Shown piece by piece: positions 1,062-61,692 of a stretch of DNA of 64,000 nucleotides. The translations under genes and the position numbers were made by a program. The DNA is from Salminus brasiliensis (lineage: Eukaryota; Chordata; Actinopteri; Characiformes; Bryconidae). Positions within the stretch are counted from its first letter, which is position 1; each line of letters starts with the position of its first letter. A model generated the notes under the pieces. The model saw only the letters and a list, made by a program, of their open reading frames with translations, did no database searches and was not told the origin of the DNA. The stretch covers positions 23,411,162 to 23,475,161 of the forward strand of contig NC_132898.1 in the NCBI RefSeq assembly GCF_030463535.1, written 5' to 3'.

Positions 1062-11533
<10,472 letters not shown>

Positions 11534-11616
11534 TGGATGAAGACCATACCAGACACTAACAAGCAAAGATATAATATCCATTTCTTGTTCAATGTCCAAT
11601 TTCACAATTTCAGTTC

Positions 11617-11622
11617 AATAAA
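11617..11622 (+). terminator. Polyadenylation signal of MYH-A
   Basis: AATAAA 84 bases after the stop codon, followed by A-rich then T/G-rich sequence. The context is the same in MYH-B. Confidence 0.8.
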
Positions 11623-11639
11623 ACTGCAGGAAAAACCAT

Positions 11640-13060
11640 CAGTTGTTTGTATTTTTTGTATTGCACAAAATTCAGAAAGAGCATGCAGTCATGTAAGTGT
11701 TCACAGTAGATGTACTAATCCACATAACGTAACTCCTTCAATAACATATAAAAAGTGATTGATTACAAGTTGATAAAAATCAGTGTTTCATATTTCCACA
11801 ACAAAGGAGTGGTTTGATAGAAAAACAACAATTAGGATTCTAGGTGTATCACTTGAAGTCAAACATCAAATAAAAGACTTCTAAATAAGATGGCATTGTC
11901 AGACTGCACACAAATCTTACTTGTACTGTATTTGATTTTTTTCATAAATTTCATGTGTTTAGTATTGATAAATACAAAGTCGATAAAACAATTCAATTAA
12001 AAAACACCAGCTAAATGCCTCTTCAATTAGTGGAAAGATGACAGTACTTGGAGAGTACTTGGGCAAAGTGTAGTGTTGAGTATTATGGTCTCTATACTAA
12101 CGTTTGTATTTAGAAGTATCTAAGCAGCTAAGCAAGTTATCTTTGGATCCTAGTCTATACAAACTAGCTATGGGTATTTGAGTAAACAGTGAAGCACTTG
12201 TGTAAGTTGCTAAATGCCTTAATTGCAAATGACACTGTCAGACTGCATACAAAACTTTTACTGTATTTGAATTTATTTGCAATGAATTTCATTGACAAAT
12301 ACAAAATCGAACAAACAAATCAATTTAAAAGGTTATGACCTAAAGGCTAAACCTGACCTGTTGAGCAATTCAAGAAAATGATGAGAAGCCCTCATCCTCA
12401 CCTTCTCAGCCTGGGGGCCATGTGATATAGGGAGGGACCAAATTTGGGGAAGGGAGATCCAGTTACAGCATATATTGCAGGCATGACATGCCTAATCAGA
12501 TCAATTATATATATATATTCCAAATCTGTAAATCTTCATTAGAATGTATTTTATGAGGCAGGGCATCACTCACTTGTCCACAGTGCTTACAAAGACCAAG
12601 ACATCCATAATAACCACCATTAACCCATTTGTACCATATACCAGATATGCACAGTAATCAGCAAGGACACACAGTGGACAGTCAGCACTCATGCCTGGAG
12701 GGGTGGGCAGCCATCGCTGTGGTGCCCGGGGAGCAGAAAGTGTTAATGGTCTTGTTCAAGAGCCCAACAGTGGCACCTTGATGAGCCAGAGTATCAAACC
12801 CACAACCCTGTCATCAGTAGCCTAGTGCTTTAACTGCTAAGCCACCACTCCCCCCAAAATCATCAACAATGGTTGGTATTGATAATGGAATGATGATAAG
12901 TACTAAATTAAATTCATCACAGCCAAGAGTTGCGAAGATTTAATATGTCTATTCATTCTGGTAGGTGAAGATAAAGAGTTTTAATTGCCAACAATCAAAA
13001 AAGTCAAATGATGAACTATGTTTATGATTTAAGCATCAATTAAAGCAAGCAATTTAACCA
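11640..13060. other. Intergenic sequence after MYH-A
   Basis: AT-rich DNA with no gene I can support. It holds one SINE (12665-12855). Short stretches, such as around 12540-12590, resemble the sequence after MYH-B near 27460-27500, so part of this is paralogous flank. Confidence 0.6.
12665..12855 (-). mobile_element. tRNA-derived SINE (minus strand)
   Basis: On the minus strand it starts with GTGGCTTAGCAGTTAAAGC, which resembles a pol III A box. GGGTTTGATAC follows about 40 bases later as a degenerate B box. Then comes a body matching the plus-strand copy at 62829-63130. It belongs to a SINE type common in fish genomes. It cannot be a working tRNA gene, since no acceptor stem closes. Confidence 0.7.
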
Positions 13061-13700
13061 TAATGTCATCTGTTTATTACAACACAAATGCATCCAACAA
13101 GAACAGCAGACAGCACATGGTAAAGGGTACAATGCTATTTGATTCCATGACCATAAACGAGGAAAATAAACGAGGTAAGTGTTATTGCATAGAGATGAAG
13201 GGCGAATGTCACACCCTGCGCAATGTGAGTCGCGATGCCTATTGCTATCTTACACTGTCTGTCAATTACTGTGAATAAATGAACAATTACAGATTATAAC
13301 AACTGTCCATATTTGAGTCTCTTACATTGACTGGTCCCCATGTACATTTAAATCACCATACAGATAAACAGCCTACAATACAGACAAATGTGCAAAATGG
13401 GGTTGTTATGGTCAGAGACTTACTTCAGAGACTGTCCTTCTCAAGCAACCGAGGAGCTCTTAGGGGGTCTGGCTAAACTCTTTTATACTGCCTTCAGAAA
13501 TGGACTAAAATTCTCAACCTCTGACAGCATCTGGTTTGTATATCTGCTTTAATTCCTAATGAGAATATTATACTCATAAGATATTGCATTTCACAATTTC
13601 AATTTATGATTCCAGTTCATCACAAGCAATGGTCTCTGAACTTTCACTGCCTAGTAATGGTCTGCCAAAGACATATTGTATTTCATTTGGAAATAAGTGT
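13060..13700. repeat. Upstream paralogous block of MYH-B
   Basis: This stretch is clearly related to 27780-28495, and parts are related to 29735-30790 and 48590-49450. One such block stands before each complete MYH gene and before the MYH pseudogene. The best-kept parts are the minus-strand TATA/donor cassette (13418-13488) and a stretch around 13590-13680. The latter is shared with the blocks before the pseudogene and MYH-C but not with that before MYH-D. Its function is unknown. The position suggests shared regulatory DNA carried along with each duplicated gene. Confidence 0.7.
13418..13488 (-). promoter_or_regulatory. Candidate minus-strand TATA promoter plus first exon and splice donor
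   Basis: On the minus strand GTATAAAAG (13480-13488) is followed by about 55 bases and then GAA|GTAAGT, with the donor at 13418-13423. The cassette recurs at 30503-30573 and 49308-49378 with TATA box and donor both kept. It lies about 0.86 kb upstream of the MYH-B TATA box and points away from it. An antisense or divergent non-coding transcript is my inference; no second exon is conserved enough to name. Confidence 0.4.
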
Positions 13701-13800
13701 TATACTCTGGTATGAAAATCATCTTTTAAAAATTGTTTTGGCCAAAACTTAAATACAGATGAATTGACAGATAACTAGGTAATAAAAGTTCAGGATAGAG

Positions 13801-13925
13801 TGACGGCCAATTTATTTATTTATAACCTAAAAAGGTTGCACTGACCCTGCAACAGAACACCAGTGAGATCACACAGCTCATTAAAAAGAGGACTCTTCTT
13901 CTAACCCTAGAATCCTTTTAAATGG
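13801..13925 (+). promoter_or_regulatory. Conserved distal upstream block of MYH-B
   Basis: The segment with AACACCAGTGAGATCACACA and CATTAAAAAGAGGACTCTTC recurs at 31196-31345 and 49541-49690. In each case it lies some 0.4-0.6 kb before the promoter. The MYH-B version lacks about 40 internal bases found in the other two. It is a candidate muscle enhancer; I do not assign specific factor sites. Confidence 0.5.
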
Positions 13926-14220
13926 GCTAGCATGCAAACTTAAAAATAAAACTGGAAGAAAAATATGGACCATTTGCATGTCCACATGGCTTTTACACAG
14001 TACATTAGGATATGTGCTGACACTGAAGGGATTAATCATGCCCATTATTTGAAACAATATTATTAATTAGTGTGTATCCTCTTTTCTGACTTTTATGAGC
14101 CCCCCAAAAGTTTAAAAAAATACTGATCAAAACTGTTCAAAAAAGGCCTGATTTTCAAGATTATAGCCTTGTTAGAAAAGTTCTGTATAGAAATTAGGTT
14201 TACTGAAATGAGCCTAATAC

Positions 14221-14402
14221 AGAACGCCAGTACTTTAAAGTATGATACATGAGCATGCCCTCATCATTGCCACTTATGGAGGAAATCCATCAAGCAAGAA
14301 TCCATGACCAAACATAGCCTGAACTTTCTGCTGAGTGAATGTTAATGGGGCTATATAAGAGGCTCCCCCAAGCACTGAGGCTACCCCAGGCACCCTGCAT
14401 AG
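14221..14402 (+). promoter_or_regulatory. MYH-B proximal promoter and first non-coding exon
   Basis: The TATA box is CTATATAAG at 14351-14359. The next about 45 bases, ending GCATAG|GTGAGT at 14402, are nearly identical before MYH-C and MYH-D. The transcript start should lie near 14382, about 30 bases after TATA, giving a short untranslated exon 1. About 130 bases upstream of TATA are also conserved between copies. Confidence 0.85.
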
Positions 14403-14540
14403 GTGAGTACATGATGTTAATTACTTGATATATTTTCGTAGAAACATTCTCATAAAACTAATCACTTATTAGTATTTATAATGTATTTTATTCTGATCTT
14501 CAATCATTTCTTAACTACTTGTCTTGTTTTCATCTTTAAG

Positions 14541-14792: not shown

Positions 14793-26703
<11,911 letters not shown>

Positions 26704-27780: not shown

Positions 27781-28495
27781 TGCATCCAACAAGAACAGCA
27801 GACAGCACATGTTAAAGGGAACAATGCTATGTGATTCCATGACCACAGAAGAAATAAACAAGGCAAGTGTTCATGATGAAGTGAGTGCAGCTCAATACTC
27901 TCACACATCTGAAGGCATGTATTTAAAACCCAGCAACTCATCACTGGGACACTTAATGTGTAAAAGTTTTGTCCTTGTCAATAAAAATAATAAACAAAAC
28001 CTATGTAAATAAACTGTACCACATCTCTTTACTAAAAAAGCATATGTAATTTGATTGAAGAACTGCAACACTGTCAGCAAACACAATACATCTGTCAATT
28101 ACTGTGAATAAATGAACAGTTACAGATTACAACAACTTTTCATATTTGAGTCGCTTACATGGACGCTTACTAGTCTCTGTGTATACTTAAATCACCATAC
28201 AGATAAACAGCCTACAATACAGACAAATGTGCAAAATGGGGTTGTAATGATCAGAGACTTCCTTCTCAAGCAACCGAGGAGCTCTTAGGGGGTCTGGCTA
28301 AACTCTTTTATACTGCCTTCAGAAACTACTAGACTAAAATTCTCAACCTCTGACAGCATTTGGCTTCTATATCTGCATTAATTCCTAATGAGAATATTAA
28401 ACTAAGATATTGCATTTCACAATTTCAATTTATGATTCCAGTTCATCACAAACAATGACCTCTGAACTTTCACTGTCTAGTAACGGTCACCATAA
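27780..28495. repeat. Upstream paralogous block before the MYH pseudogene
   Basis: Related to 13060-13700, including CATCCAACAAGAACAGCAGA and the minus-strand TATA cassette. Similarity stops just before the exon 5 remnant at 28528. The proximal promoter and MYH exons 1-4 that should follow are deleted. Confidence 0.7.
28251..28313 (-). promoter_or_regulatory. Decayed minus-strand TATA cassette (splice donor lost)
   Basis: The TATA box (28305-28313 on the minus strand) is kept. About 14 bases that carry the donor in the other three copies are missing, apparently by deletion between two AGAGACT repeats. The neighbouring MYH copy is dead. Confidence 0.4.
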
Positions 28496-28527: not shown

Positions 28528-28995
28528 ACCTATTCAGACACTTGCTCTATGTCATTGTGAACTCCTACAAGTGGCTGCCAGTGTGTAATGTAGTTGTTGA
28601 AGCTGGATACAGAGGCAAGAAGAGAACTGAAGCCCCACTGATATCAAATATCAAAGGCCAGACTGTACCTCAGGTGACAAGCTAATTTGTAAACAAAATC
28701 ACAAGGTCTTTAATAGTCTTGCACTGTGGTCTACAACATTGGTGTCTGGTTAGACAAGAACAAGGACCCTGTGAATGATGTTGTGCAGCTGTACCAAGCA
28801 AACTGCTGGCCTTACTGTACGCCACTCATGCATCTGCTGACGGTAACTTGAAAAAAAATATTTCTACATAAATACAAAATTATATCTGATGGTAAACTTT
28901 AGACATAGTAATTAATTATCTGCAGATGCTGGAAAGGCGGCAAGAAGGGTCAAAAGAAGGGAGGCTCTTTCCAGACAATATCTGCTCTGTTCAGG
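28528..28995 (+). pseudogene. MYH pseudogene fragment (exons 5, 13, 16, 17)
   Basis: Four MYH exon pieces lie within 470 bases in the correct order. Exon 5 (28528 to about 28640) has an early frameshift. The end of exon 13 (about 28651-28673) encodes KGQTVPQ and keeps its donor. The end of exon 16 (about 28715-28842) encodes KNKDP and related residues, with gaps. Exon 17 (28926-28995) is 70 bases instead of 74. Intron 17 resemblance continues to about 29040, then stops. Exons 6-12, 14 and 15 are gone. The loop 2 region differs from all four live copies, so this is an older, separate paralogue. Confidence 0.85.
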
Positions 28996-29039
28996 GTAAG
29001 ATTGTATCACACTTTCATATTATTATTAGAAAGCTATGG

Positions 29040-29735
29040 TTTTGAATGAGGACAATGACAGAGAAAAGGAACATCGAATGCGCTGCACAATGAAGCAAGC
29101 AGGTGTCAGTGCTAGACTATATTGTAAATTGATGAGTTAGTAGAACCTATTGGCTAAAGGGCTGCATTGAGAAGAGCAGTACAATAAGGTTCCAAGTGTT
29201 TTGTTAAATGCAGTGTTGTCAAATCCACTGCTAAGTTAAACCAAGTTATCTGAGGAAGTGAATAATAGTAGTAAAGGCAAACTAACCTTTTTTAAACCAC
29301 CTAAACCTTAGTTAGCTTGTTAGCGTTATGGCTTGTTTACTTACATTTTTATAAAAGACCAGGTGATGCAAATGTATAATTTACAACAGGAGCAGTGGGT
29401 TCTTGCATGCATCTGAACATTAAAATATTTAATGCCCACAAAGCAGGAGAAGGCTATTGAAAGTTATAAAGTAGTTAATGGTATAATCTCATGAGCAAGC
29501 ACCACAATAGAGGTGGTAGTGACAGTGACAAGGACAAACTCCCTCATACTAAGAGGAAGAAACCTTGGGAGAAACCAAGACTCAGTCCGAGGAACCCATC
29601 GGCCTTAGGTCAACCCGCACAGCACAAACAAACAAACAAATACAAAAACAATATAAAAACAATACACAAAGAACTAGACAGAGAGAAAATGAAGAGCTTT
29701 AGATAATAAATCAATCAATGCTAAAAAAAGAGCAT
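29040..29735. other. Intergenic sequence with a fish interspersed repeat
   Basis: Mostly unrecognised. About 29500-29620, with GACAGTGACAAGGACAAACT and GAGGAAGAAACC, has the look of an interspersed repeat widespread in teleosts. I see no gene here. Confidence 0.45.
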
Positions 29736-30790
29736 CCCACAAGAGCAGTACACAGTATTGCATTAACCTTTTAAGTTAAAGGGCACAGTGCTATATTCCT
29801 TGACCATCCAAAAAATAAAGATGCATGGCTCTAAAAATAAACGATGCAAGTGTTCACTCACAGGGCTGAAAGGTCTCTTAGTCTGGAGAGCAGCTGAAGA
29901 CTCTCACACACCTGACCATTAAAGCAGGCATTTGAAACCCAGTAATTACTGGAACCCAATCACCACTGTAACACTGTGTGTTAAATTATTGTCCCAGTGT
30001 TACGGGCACAACACTTATAGTTTAATGATCAGAAAAAAAAGACACTTTAATGCATGATCGAACTAGAACATTAAGGGCATGATGTTCGATAACTGTTAAA
30101 TAAACACTTTCACACTGCATTAAAAGTAGTGTCTATGCATCTTTGTATTCAGTTTTGGTGCTGTACGATGACTGACTTGCCATTAATGGCAATTTTTTGA
30201 GAAAAAATTTGTAATTGACATTATAATGAGCTCATGAATGAAAATTATTGAAAAGCTAATAGAAAACGTTATTCTAATTTAATTTAATGAATTAAATGAA
30301 AAATTTAAAGTCATTATACTTTAACTCTTTATCTATTGTCAGATAATGTAAAAAATGTAGAACAATACATGCACAACAATATACACAAATTACAGCAACT
30401 GTCCCTAGTGACCTTTGTACACAGGCCTGACTCCATCTAATACAGAATTAATGAACATTAAAGCTAAAGAAAGTCTTGACAAATAGGTTTAGATGTTCAG
30501 AGACTTACTTCAGAGACTGCCATTGTCAAGCATCTGAGAAACTCTTAAGGGGACTGGCTAAAATCTTTTATACTGCCTTCAGAAAGGACTAAAATTCTCA
30601 ACCCATGACAGCATGGTCTTCTATATCTGCATTATTTCCAAATGAGCATATTAAACTTAGATATTGCATTTCAGAATTTCAATTTATGATTCCAGCTCAC
30701 TCCAAGCAATGGCCTCTGAACTTTCACTGCCTAGTAATGTCTGCCAAGGACATATTATATTTCATTTGGAAATAAGCGTTATAAACTGCT
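29735..30790. repeat. Upstream paralogous block of MYH-C
   Basis: Closest to 48590-49450, and also related to 13060-13700 and 27780-28495. It includes AAAGATGCATGGCTCTAAAA, shared with the MYH-D block, and the minus-strand TATA/donor cassette. Confidence 0.7.
30503..30573 (-). promoter_or_regulatory. Candidate minus-strand TATA promoter plus first exon and splice donor
   Basis: GTATAAAAG on the minus strand (30565-30573) and the donor GTAAGT (30503-30508), as at 13418-13488. It lies about 1.2 kb upstream of the MYH-C TATA box. An ATGGCAGTCTCTGAA stretch directly precedes the donor here and at 49308-49378, but not in the MYH-B version. Confidence 0.4.
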
Positions 30791-31618: not shown

Positions 31619-31807
31619 CAGAACGCCAGTGTTTTAAACGTATAATTTGATACATGAGGACGTCGTCATCATTGCCAGTTAGGGAGGAAATACATCAAGC
31701 AAGAATCCATGACCAAACATAGCCTGAACGTTCTGCTGAGTGAACATTAAAGGGGCTATATAAGAGGCTCCCCCAAGCACTGAGGCTACCCCAGGCACCC
31801 TGCATAG
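31619..31807 (+). promoter_or_regulatory. MYH-C proximal promoter and first non-coding exon
   Basis: CTATATAAG starts at 31756. Exon 1 ends at 31807 with GCATAG|GTGAGG. It is nearly the same as the MYH-B and MYH-D promoters, so MYH-C has what it needs to start transcription. Confidence 0.85.
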
Positions 31808-32520: not shown

Positions 32521-43705
<11,185 letters not shown>

Positions 43706-47110: not shown

Positions 47111-48370
47111 TTCTGCATTATGAAAATGTGAAAAAATAGAGGAACTCCAGGACCAATATGTTAGGCAAGGACAAATATGTTACAATGACATTCTATGTAG
47201 GTATCAGCTGACCTTTTTAACCTGTACTCTAACTCTCTACACTCACAATAGCTAGAGATACAGTTTCAGAGGGGACAACAGTGCATTTTGTATGTAACTT
47301 TGGATGAGATTAAGTGTCAACTAAATGCTTTAAAAATAAATCAGTAATCGATGTGTTACGATGGGTGAAGCTTGGAGGCAGAGGCGAACATGGTAAAACA
47401 CAGGTATGTGTTAAAGATAAAGATTTGTTAAAGATAAAACTAAACATAATACAAAGAGATACAAACTGGGGAACAAACTAAACACAGAAACTAACAAAGA
47501 AACTGACATGAACACACATACACATGATCACATTCAAGACCAAAGGCTGAAACAAAGGGGTACTTACACATACAATTATACAAATGAGGAACACCTAGAG
47601 CAAAAAAGAGGGCATGGCTACAGAGGAGGGACAGGTGGAAATACTAATGAGCATGCGGGGCAAGGAAGGACAGAAGCAAATCAAGTCAAGTCAAGTGGGT
47701 TTATTGTCATTTCAACTACATACAGAGTACACAGTGAAACGAAACAACGTTCCTCCAGGACCATGGTGCGACATAGACAGTGCATACAAGACAAATAGAA
47801 CCTTGTTTGGTGAAACCAAACAAAGGGACAGTTGTGAAATGTATTACATGCAATCCAAAACAGATCTATTAAGTGAGCACTTATTACCATCAATGAATAT
47901 GTCACAATATTGCTAAATTAATTAATGTAATTAATGTAACTATTCCCAGAATTGTTCATGTTACCTAATGCAGGTGCTCAGTATTTAGAGAAAGGTTACA
48001 CAAATATAATATGTATACTAGTACCAATACTACTACCTCTATTATTAATAATAGTAATAACAAAAAAATAAGAAGAAAATATTTGGTTTACTCCCCCTAA
48101 AGTTAGTTCAATTAAATAAGCGAATGATATAGGCAAAACCTACCAAAACATTTCTTTTTGTATTTTAGGGCTATATACTTTACAGTTTTGCCATTGCAAT
48201 TGTTTCAGAACAATATTACAGTATACAGCAAATTTTGTCAGTGTTAAAGCAACACCATGAGTGTTAAAAAGTAACACTTCCAGTGCTGATTTAACACTAT
48301 ACATTTCCTGTATACATAGCCTACTGACTAGACTCTCCAGCAGAATCTATTTTAAGGAATCTATTCTTAG
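47110..48370. other. Intergenic sequence with interspersed repeat
   Basis: About 47680-47800 (TCAAGTCAAGTGGGTTTATT and following) has the look of a fish interspersed repeat. 47370-47640 is purine-rich and may be another repeat. 48230-48300 holds several GTGTTAA/TTAACAC-type words that can pair with each other. No gene is seen. Confidence 0.45.
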
Positions 48371-48372
48371 GG

Positions 48373-48455
48373 CAGCACTCACCTGTCCAGGTGCAGCTAG
48401 AGTTGTTGCTGACTGAGGAAACTGGTCTGACATTGCTGAGCACCAAGGTATGACA
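48373..48455 (+). pseudogene. MYH pseudogene fragment (exon 40)
   Basis: CACTCACCTGTCCAGGTGCA and later GACATTGCTGAG match the exon that encodes HLSRYRKVQ and ADIAESQ in the live genes. The middle is rearranged and the frame is lost. It stands just before the upstream block of MYH-D, where the end of a preceding MYH gene would be expected. Confidence 0.65.
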
Positions 48456-48589
48456 GACAAGAGCTGAAAAGATAAAAAGGTAATTGATAAAATAGAAGTT
48501 AAGGTCCATTAAAGCAATTACTTTGATCTCTAAACACCTAATTCTTACTGTATACTACAATACTGAACCTCAGAGTAGAAAGAACAGAC

Positions 48590-49450
48590 AGACACACAAC
48601 AAGAACATCAGACAGTATTGCATTCACCTTAAGTTAAAGGGCACACTGCAATATCCCATTACCATTCAAAAAATAAAGATGCATGGCTCTAAAAATAAAC
48701 AACACAAGTGTTCATGCACAGAGCTGAAGAATCTTAAGACTATGGAGAGCAGTTGAAGACTCTCACACATCTGACCATTAAAGCAGGCATTTGAAACCCA
48801 GTAAGTCACCACTGGAACACAGTGTGTTTAATTACTGCCCCAGTGTTATATGCACATTCATATTTCAACCCTTGTACATTGAATATATGATTTACAAATG
48901 CATTTTATTTCTAGAACATAACACTAAATGCAAAGTATACAACAAATACTTAAAGCTATGTGTTCTGAACCTCATTAAAAGCCATCATCCAGCGACCATC
49001 CTTCTTTGCTTTCAGTTTTAGTACTACACAATTATTTACATATATAATAATATAGCACATTCTGGAATAGAAATCTGTTATTCAGATTTAATGTAATCAA
49101 ACTATACTGGTAAAACATTTTCTAGCAGTCTCAGTTAACCTTAAAAAAAAACCTAATATATGCACAATAATATATACAGATTACAGCAACTGTCCATATT
49201 GACCTTAGTACACAGGCCTGACTCAGACTCATGAAACAAAAATCATGAAAACTAAAGTTACAGAAAAATAGAGGTTACAGGAAAAATTAACACATGTTTA
49301 AGAAGAGACTTACTTCAGAGACTGCCATTGTCAAGCATCTGAGAAACTCGTAGGGGGGCTGGCTAAACTCTTTTATACTGCCTTAAGAAAGGACTAAAAT
49401 TCTCAAGCCCTGACAGCATGTCTTTCTATATCTGCATTATTTCCAAATGA
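48590..49450. repeat. Upstream paralogous block of MYH-D
   Basis: Closest to the MYH-C block at 29735-30790: the same order of conserved words, including GACCATTAAAGCAGGCATTT and the TATA/donor cassette. It lacks the stretch near 13590-13680 that the other three blocks share. Confidence 0.7.
49308..49378 (-). promoter_or_regulatory. Candidate minus-strand TATA promoter plus first exon and splice donor
   Basis: GTATAAAAG on the minus strand (49370-49378) and the donor GTAAGT (49308-49313). The distance to the MYH-D TATA box is about 0.77 kb. See 13418-13488 for the argument. Confidence 0.4.
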
Positions 49451-50010: not shown

Positions 50011-50196
50011 GAACGCCAGTGTTTTAAGGTATAATATGATACATAAGGATGTCGTCATCATTCCCTCTTAGGGAGGAAATACATCAAGCAAAAATCCATG
50101 ACCAAACATAGCCTGAACGTTCTGCTGAGTGAACATTAAAGGGGCTATATAAGAGGCTCCCCCAAGCACTGAGGCTACCCCAGGCACCCTGCATAG
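50011..50196 (+). promoter_or_regulatory. MYH-D proximal promoter and first non-coding exon
   Basis: CTATATAAG starts at 50145 and exon 1 ends at 50196 (GCATAG|GTGAGG). The whole stretch is nearly the same as in MYH-C, including CCATGACCAAACATAGCC upstream of TATA. Confidence 0.85.

Positions 50197-50962: not shown

Positions 50963-61692
<10,730 letters not shown>

Follow-up and report, generated by a model that had tools for sequence, protein, structure and literature searches.

Does a short cassette that recurs upstream of the fast MYH genes of Salminus brasiliensis drive transcription away from these genes, on the opposite strand? An initial annotation of a 64,000-nucleotide stretch of DNA (hereafter called the window) described three places where a minus-strand TATA-like box is followed about 60 bases on by a splice donor, and compared them with the antisense transcripts of mammalian fast MYH genes. 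We analyzed the layout of these cassettes, their copies in the rest of the array and in the genome, and the sequences that surround them.

A minus-strand cassette upstream of tandem MYH genes

The window lies in an array that comprises 14 or more MYH genes, all on the plus strand, and spans 23.298-23.517 Mb of the 34-Mb sequence C25. We numbered the genes g1 to g14 from matches to the Myosin_N profile, on which the gene list rests; in the whole 1.07-Gb genome, this profile recovered 41 exons, which is a lower bound. The window contains genes 9, 10, and 11 with their promoters and the body of gene 8. The MYH promoter is the best-kept stretch of the region, with 61 invariant bases, and exon 1 ends with a GTGAG donor; the ATG of gene 9 is at 14793. 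By alignment, the MYH TATA region was also recognized in genes 1, 12, and 13 and, weakly, in gene 14. The MYH promoters and the cassettes of the window are as follows.

14350, plus strand: TATA box GCTATATAAGAGG of MYH gene 9 (motif scan)
14347..14407, plus strand: core promoter of MYH gene 9, an invariant 61-nt run that begins at the TATA region and ends with the exon 1 donor GTGAG
31755..31767, plus strand: TATA box GCTATATAAGAGG of MYH gene 10 (motif scan)
50144..50156, plus strand: TATA box GCTATATAAGAGG of MYH gene 11 (motif scan)
13480..13488, minus strand: TATA-like box GTATAAAAG of the gene 9 cassette, inside a 16-nt invariant run (13479-13494)
13418..13423, minus strand: donor-like hexamer GTAAGT of the gene 9 cassette, exon side GAA (read directly; the 21-nt run 13414-13434 is invariant in g5, g9, g10, and g11)
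13424..13461, minus strand: putative first exon of an antisense RNA from the gene 9 cassette, placed by the TATA-donor spacing
30565..30573, minus strand: GTATAAAAG of the gene 10 cassette (motif scan)
30503..30508, minus strand: donor-like GTAAGT of the gene 10 cassette (motif scan)
49370..49378, minus strand: GTATAAAAG of the gene 11 cassette (motif scan)
49308..49313, minus strand: donor-like GTAAGT of the gene 11 cassette (motif scan)
28305..28313, minus strand: TATA-like box of a fourth window copy (g10b), which is without donor

The layout described in the initial annotation was exact at all three places, with 65 nt from the first TATA base to the start of the donor in each. Its position was confirmed as well, since the cassettes of genes 9, 10, and 11 lie 862, 1182, and 766 nt upstream of the respective MYH TATA boxes and point in the opposite direction. 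The donor, which had been called perfect, is so on the intron side; on the exon side it reads GAA, not MAG. The cassette donor scored 4.28 versus 8.66 for the consensus, a score reached by 6 of the 310 GT sites on both strands of 11400-14200. At the expected distance from the cassette TATA, no perfect initiator was found. The fourth copy, g10b, lost its donor via a deletion of 13-14 nt between flanking AGTCTCTGA direct repeats.

The exact 9-mer GTATAAAAG occurs 4 times in the window versus 0.59 expected. Pairs of TATAAAAG and a GTRAGT 35-65 nt further on number 3 in the window, whereas 100 first-order Markov simulations gave 0.05 on average and never more than 1; in the surrounding 240 kb, there are 8 such pairs. 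As the window copies are homologous, they reflect one origin and not three independent hits, so these enrichment counts overstate the case.

The safest statement, judging from the sequence, is that the cassette is a paralog-conserved block upstream of the MYH unit, with the layout of a promoter and first exon on the opposite strand. Our main reading, held tentatively at a probability of roughly 0.42, is that this block works as an antisense promoter in at least some copies.

Distribution of the cassette in the array and in the genome

An intact cassette was present upstream of 8 of the 14 MYH genes (g4 to g11), five of these copies being on C25 outside the window. All were on the minus strand, the genes being on the plus strand, and the TATA-donor spacing was 65 nt in seven copies and 64 nt in one (g4). 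The copy g10b, at 28.3 kb, is a ninth close copy, with the TATA kept and the donor deleted. Exact GTATAAAAG occurred 13 times in 240 kb, always on the minus strand and never on the plus strand: nine in cassettes, two at second sites in the upstream regions of genes 4 and 5, and two elsewhere. The second sites of genes 4 and 5 lie 214-217 bases 5' of the cassette TATA (C25:23350473 and C25:23365200).

Searching the whole genome with 171 bases of the cassette returned 9 matches at E values up to 10, all of them within the C25 array. A dispersed repeat was thus rejected for the close copies, the only ones for which this search speaks, since it missed the diverged copies of the array. The genome contains further MYH clusters at C1:14496160-14621147, C5:26021912-26078440, and C12:26261285-26310698, with 9, 4, and 3 Myosin_N exons, respectively. 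In the 4 kb upstream of one gene from each cluster (3 of the 16 genes), no cassette was detected, the best E value being 3 with a cassette profile built from eight copies of the C25 array. At ten further Myosin_N loci, covered for ∼1.5 kb on each side, the profile had no match at E values up to 10.

Conservation extends beyond the TATA and the donor

It is also quite possible that the block serves the MYH unit as a conventional conserved enhancer or as an element distal to the promoter, in which the TATA-like and donor-like strings would be incidental parts of factor sites, used neither in transcription nor in splicing. Six of the eight intact cassettes (g4 to g9) are near-identical recent duplicates, 95-100% identical to g9, so their agreement says little, and the informative comparison is that of the g9 type versus g10 versus g11. 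Over 13436-13585, taken in three 50-nt steps, 8 of the 9 comparisons gave 80-92% identity and the ninth gave 66%, versus 30-62% at 13336-13385 and 6-13% at 13736-13785. A patch about 100 nt past the donor (13286-13335) was 60-90% identical among the three. The divergence of the surrounding sequence, as first described, holds on the intron side (13350-13417, 35-52%); it does not hold for the 72 nt 5' of the TATA, which are 83-91% identical, like the exon (82-93%). Conservation therefore covers no less than 150-200 nt, without being concentrated on the TATA and the donor, which speaks for an enhancer. So does the presence of conserved non-coding elements in the MYH 5' flanks of zebrafish and lamprey, as described in PMC3869912.

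The seven longest invariant runs include that of the donor (21 nt, 13414-13434) and that of the TATA (16 nt, 13479-13494), but also two runs at 13856-13900 and TTGAGAATTTTAGTCC beside the TATA, whose run equals that of the TATA in length. We slid a pair made of a 6-mer and a 9-mer at the same spacing over 13380-13600 in g5, g9, g10, and g11, four of the eight intact copies. The pair was fully invariant at 10 of 150 positions, which tells against the combination of TATA and donor being special in the young copies. What an enhancer accounts for less readily is the precise TATA-donor spacing kept in 8 copies.

Two further conserved blocks lie on the MYH side of the cassette.

13489..13719, unstranded: conserved block C, on the 5' side of the cassette TATA, with partial counterparts upstream of genes 2, 3, and 12
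13805..13878, unstranded: conserved block B, situated between the divergent TATA boxes of cassette and MYH gene, with matches in genes 3, 12, and 13 (alignment; motif scan)

The part of block C at 13586-13735 is 66-94% identical between g9 and g10 and absent from g11. Block B has counterparts by alignment at g2, g10, and g11 too. It carries TTATTTATAA in g9, g11, and g12 (at 13816 in gene 9), which we take to be a MEF2-type site, and CCTAAAAAGG at 13826 in gene 9, presumably a CArG box. Blocks B and C are present upstream of gene 12, whose own copy lost the TATA and the donor, and this again favors an enhancer.

Older copies retain the donor end in two lineages

The cassette profile, searched over 240 kb, identified diverged copies upstream of g2, g3 (two copies, g3 and g3b), and g12, all on the minus strand. 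Four weaker copies (g3c, g2b, g13, and g3d), with E values of 2.9e-5 to 1e-3, were on the minus strand as well; their homology is probable, not certain, because these E values are weak and the profile comes from the same array. We discounted a further 15 hits, with E values of 3 to 8, as chance matches. The profile search found no copy at g1, where 8.5 kb upstream were covered, or at g14.

g2 and g3b, old copies: TATA reads GTGCAAAAA, donor GTAAGT intact
g3, old copy: TATA reads GCGCAAAAG, donor GTGAGT
g12, old copy: TATA and donor both gone
g13, weak copy: GTATAAAAA kept, 8 of 9 TATA bases, without donor
g3c, weak copy: GTATTAAAG, 8 of 9 TATA bases, GTAAGA at the donor
g2b, weak copy: donor lost
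g3d, weak copy: fragment

Across the paralogs, the TATA is kept in g4 to g11 and g10b, still matches at 8 of its 9 bases in g13 and g3c, and is lost in g2, g3, g3b, and g12. The donor is GTAAGT in g4 to g11, g2, and g3b, GTGAGT in g3, and GTAAGA in g3c, and it is lost in g10b, g12, g13, and g2b. That the two signals were not kept together in the old copies is a further point for an enhancer. Set against this, the donor end is the best-kept part of the exon in g2 and g3. In g2, the donor and the 8 exon bases before it together match g9 at 14 of 14 positions versus 25 of 48 (52%) in the remaining exon; in g3, the corresponding figures are 12 of 14, with a single donor change from GTAAGT to GTGAGT, versus 18 of 48 (38%). 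Such retention within a decayed exon is unexpected if the donor-like string were incidental. Summed over six old lineages (g2, g3, g12, g3c, g2b, and g13, leaving aside g3b, which is like g2, and the fragment g3d), the donor hexamer was kept at 21 of 36 positions versus 140 of 288 for the rest of the exon, with no clear difference. Evidence of donor constraint is thus found in two or three lineages and is absent in the others. Genes 1, 12, 13, and 14 are without an intact cassette although their MYH TATA is alignable, if weakly in gene 14; not every MYH gene, then, requires a cassette.

Copying of MYH units within the array

The block might instead be passive baggage, copied along with each MYH unit in recent duplications or conversions and devoid of present function; we consider this unlikely. 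The near-identity of g4 to g9 is what it would predict, the pair-slide test shows nothing special, and where the next MYH coding start is over 2.5 kb away (g2, g3, g3b, g10b, g12, and g13), the copies have lost the TATA, the donor, or both. However, the block, at mostly 80-92% identity among g9, g10, and g11, appears to evolve at a lower rate than most of the sequence on either side, and homologous blocks persist at g2, g3, and g12.

Coding pieces of g1 to g11 show 91.9-99.2% third-position identity (a few pieces slightly overrun the exon ends), and genes 10 and 11 are 98.3% identical over 1.1 kb (window 33352-34471 and 51319-52438). Unlike these coding regions, the DNA between the genes aligns poorly over much of its length. 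For the coding regions, this looks like gene conversion or concerted evolution. MYH-like gene fragments upstream of genes 10 and 11 (window 28721-29025 and 48369-48483) are possibly traces of lost gene copies.

In genes 8 and 9, the intron that follows the first coding exon contains an insert of ∼660 bp (15189-15847 in gene 9, near the window start in gene 8). The insert has no match in gene 10, contains a minus-strand TATAAAGG of its own at 15705, and looks like a fragment of a mobile element. By eye, letters in the 900 bases upstream of gene 3 (C25:23338840) resemble this insert. Within 6.5 kb upstream of gene 3, no counterpart of the MYH core promoter was found at E values up to 1e-3, and this gene may be a broken or re-promotered copy.

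We also considered that the cassette might be what is left, in inverted orientation, of an old MYH promoter with its exon 1 from a head-to-head pair, and rejected this as very improbable: the succession of a TATA, ∼50-65 nt, and a donor does recall MYH exon 1 (GCTATATAAGAGG to GTGAGT in gene 9, TATAAAAGAGG in a C5 gene), but over 240 kb the cassette profile had no plus-strand hit at any MYH promoter, its sole plus-strand hit (E = 5.9) being downstream of the start of gene 14, and the Myosin_N profile, an exon-4 probe, and a carboxy-terminal probe gave only plus-strand MYH exons on C25.

Sequences downstream of the donor

Beyond the intron-side divergence, a patch at ∼13081-13202 is 60-63% related to ∼29723-29873 and ∼48583-48729. 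Two weak candidate acceptors were identified.

29828..29850, minus strand: candidate acceptor of g10, TTTATTTTTAG|AGC, first exon base 29830 (weak; common to g11, not in gene 9)
48686..48708, minus strand: candidate acceptor of g11, TTTATTTTTAG|AGC, first exon base 48688 (weak; not in all copies)

Among the best six scoring acceptor sites per locus, one was common to g10 and g11 and none was common to g9, g10, and g11; the g9 type is without the TTTATTTTTAG|AGC site because of an indel there. A spliced antisense RNA with a shared second exon thus found no support among these sites, the candidate acceptor being in g10 and g11 and not in the g9 type. Work in yeast reports that promoter directionality depends on a whole splicing-competent intron and not on the 5' splice site alone (PMC4859611), which weighs against a donor without an acceptor.

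A coding antisense gene was rejected, as all 5 listed open reading frames of at least 50 amino acids in 11300-13560 are on the plus strand. A structured RNA was also rejected, with 0 Rfam matches at the gathering threshold in the window; 11250-14500 gave two sub-threshold matches only (E = 0.086 and 0.66), which were taken as chance.

A putative divergent promoter in the MYH control region

Together, these results leave antisense transcription from the cassettes plausible. The antisense interpretation of the initial annotation is partly supported by the layout, with a TATA, ∼60 nt, and a donor directed away from the MYH gene, by its setting in a conserved upstream region with a MEF2-type site, by the donor end being best kept in g2 and g3, and by the strand-specific lncRNAs complementary to MYH loci of trout. 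It is weakened by the TATA and donor not being kept together in old copies, by the pair-slide test, and by the acceptors, none of those compared being common to g9, g10, and g11.

Under our main reading, that of an antisense promoter, the control region of g4 to g11 would comprise the MYH core promoter, the MEF2-type block ∼0.5 kb upstream (with the spacing of gene 9), and the cassette block ∼0.9 kb upstream, the cassette end most likely acting as a divergent antisense promoter. When this region is active in fast fibers, TBP would bind the minus-strand TATA, and Pol II would start near window position 13450-13460 and transcribe back toward the previous MYH gene, whose 3' end lies at a distance of 2-6 kb in the window. 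U1 snRNP bound at the donor would help Pol II to elongate through early poly(A) signals, whether or not splicing takes place. The antisense RNA, or the act of transcription, could then influence the previous MYH gene. We infer initiation, the use of U1, the direction of the effect, and any role in isoform choice from the arrangement of these elements. In its fullest form, this model would have eight consecutive genes, each with a TATA-driven, donor-bearing antisense promoter that reads over the 3' end of the previous gene and couples the activation of neighbors as in mammals; we regard this as rather doubtful.

Comparison with known systems

The conserved elements of zebrafish and lamprey resemble the cassette in being conserved upstream blocks that precede fast MYH genes, according to PMC3869912; they differ in that no antisense promoter is described, the word "antisense" occurring 0 times in that paper. 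In mouse, deletion of the enhancer that drives Linc-Myh abolished Linc-Myh RNA, and the authors conclude that Linc-Myh is not required for efficient expression of Myh4 or Myh1 (PMC8873246), a result that calls for caution before a function is assumed for RNAs of MYH loci.

The closest case in fish is the trout, in which strand-specific RNA sequencing reported 17 lncNATs complementary to 12 MYH loci (PMC9763276). All 17 were higher in susceptible than in resistant fish at day 1 after infection, and the lncNATs correlated positively with the sense MYH genes. Like the transcripts that we propose, they are antisense RNAs at MYH loci of a fish; the difference is that their start sites and any use of a TATA or donor are not stated in the text of PMC9763276 available to us. 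A fish counterpart, which the initial annotation had presented as new, would thus not be wholly so. The repeated cassette element itself was not found in the literature searched, which comprised titles, the openings of abstracts, and passages, with few subscription papers covered.

For mammals, the intergenic antisense transcripts that the initial annotation had mentioned are indeed on record. In the fast MYH cluster, according to reviews, antisense RNAs arise from intergenic bidirectional promoters (PMC3795307, PMC10300182). As reported there, the aII, xII, and bII NATs share with the fish cassettes a setting of tandem fast MYH genes with an antisense start between the genes, and their bidirectional promoter is in the 5' proximal region of the downstream gene. 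The fish cassettes have the same placement, lying between tandem fast MYH genes and pointing away from the downstream gene. The two systems differ in that the mammalian NATs are transcripts mapped by RT-PCR, with IIa antisense RNA inverse to IIa mRNA, whereas the fish cassettes are known from sequence alone. If no antisense RNA is made, the block would still be a candidate for the control of a large array of fast-myosin genes. If antisense RNA does start at the cassettes, they would represent a fish counterpart of the mammalian antisense control between neighboring myosin genes, with a start site and a donor recurring from one gene to the next.
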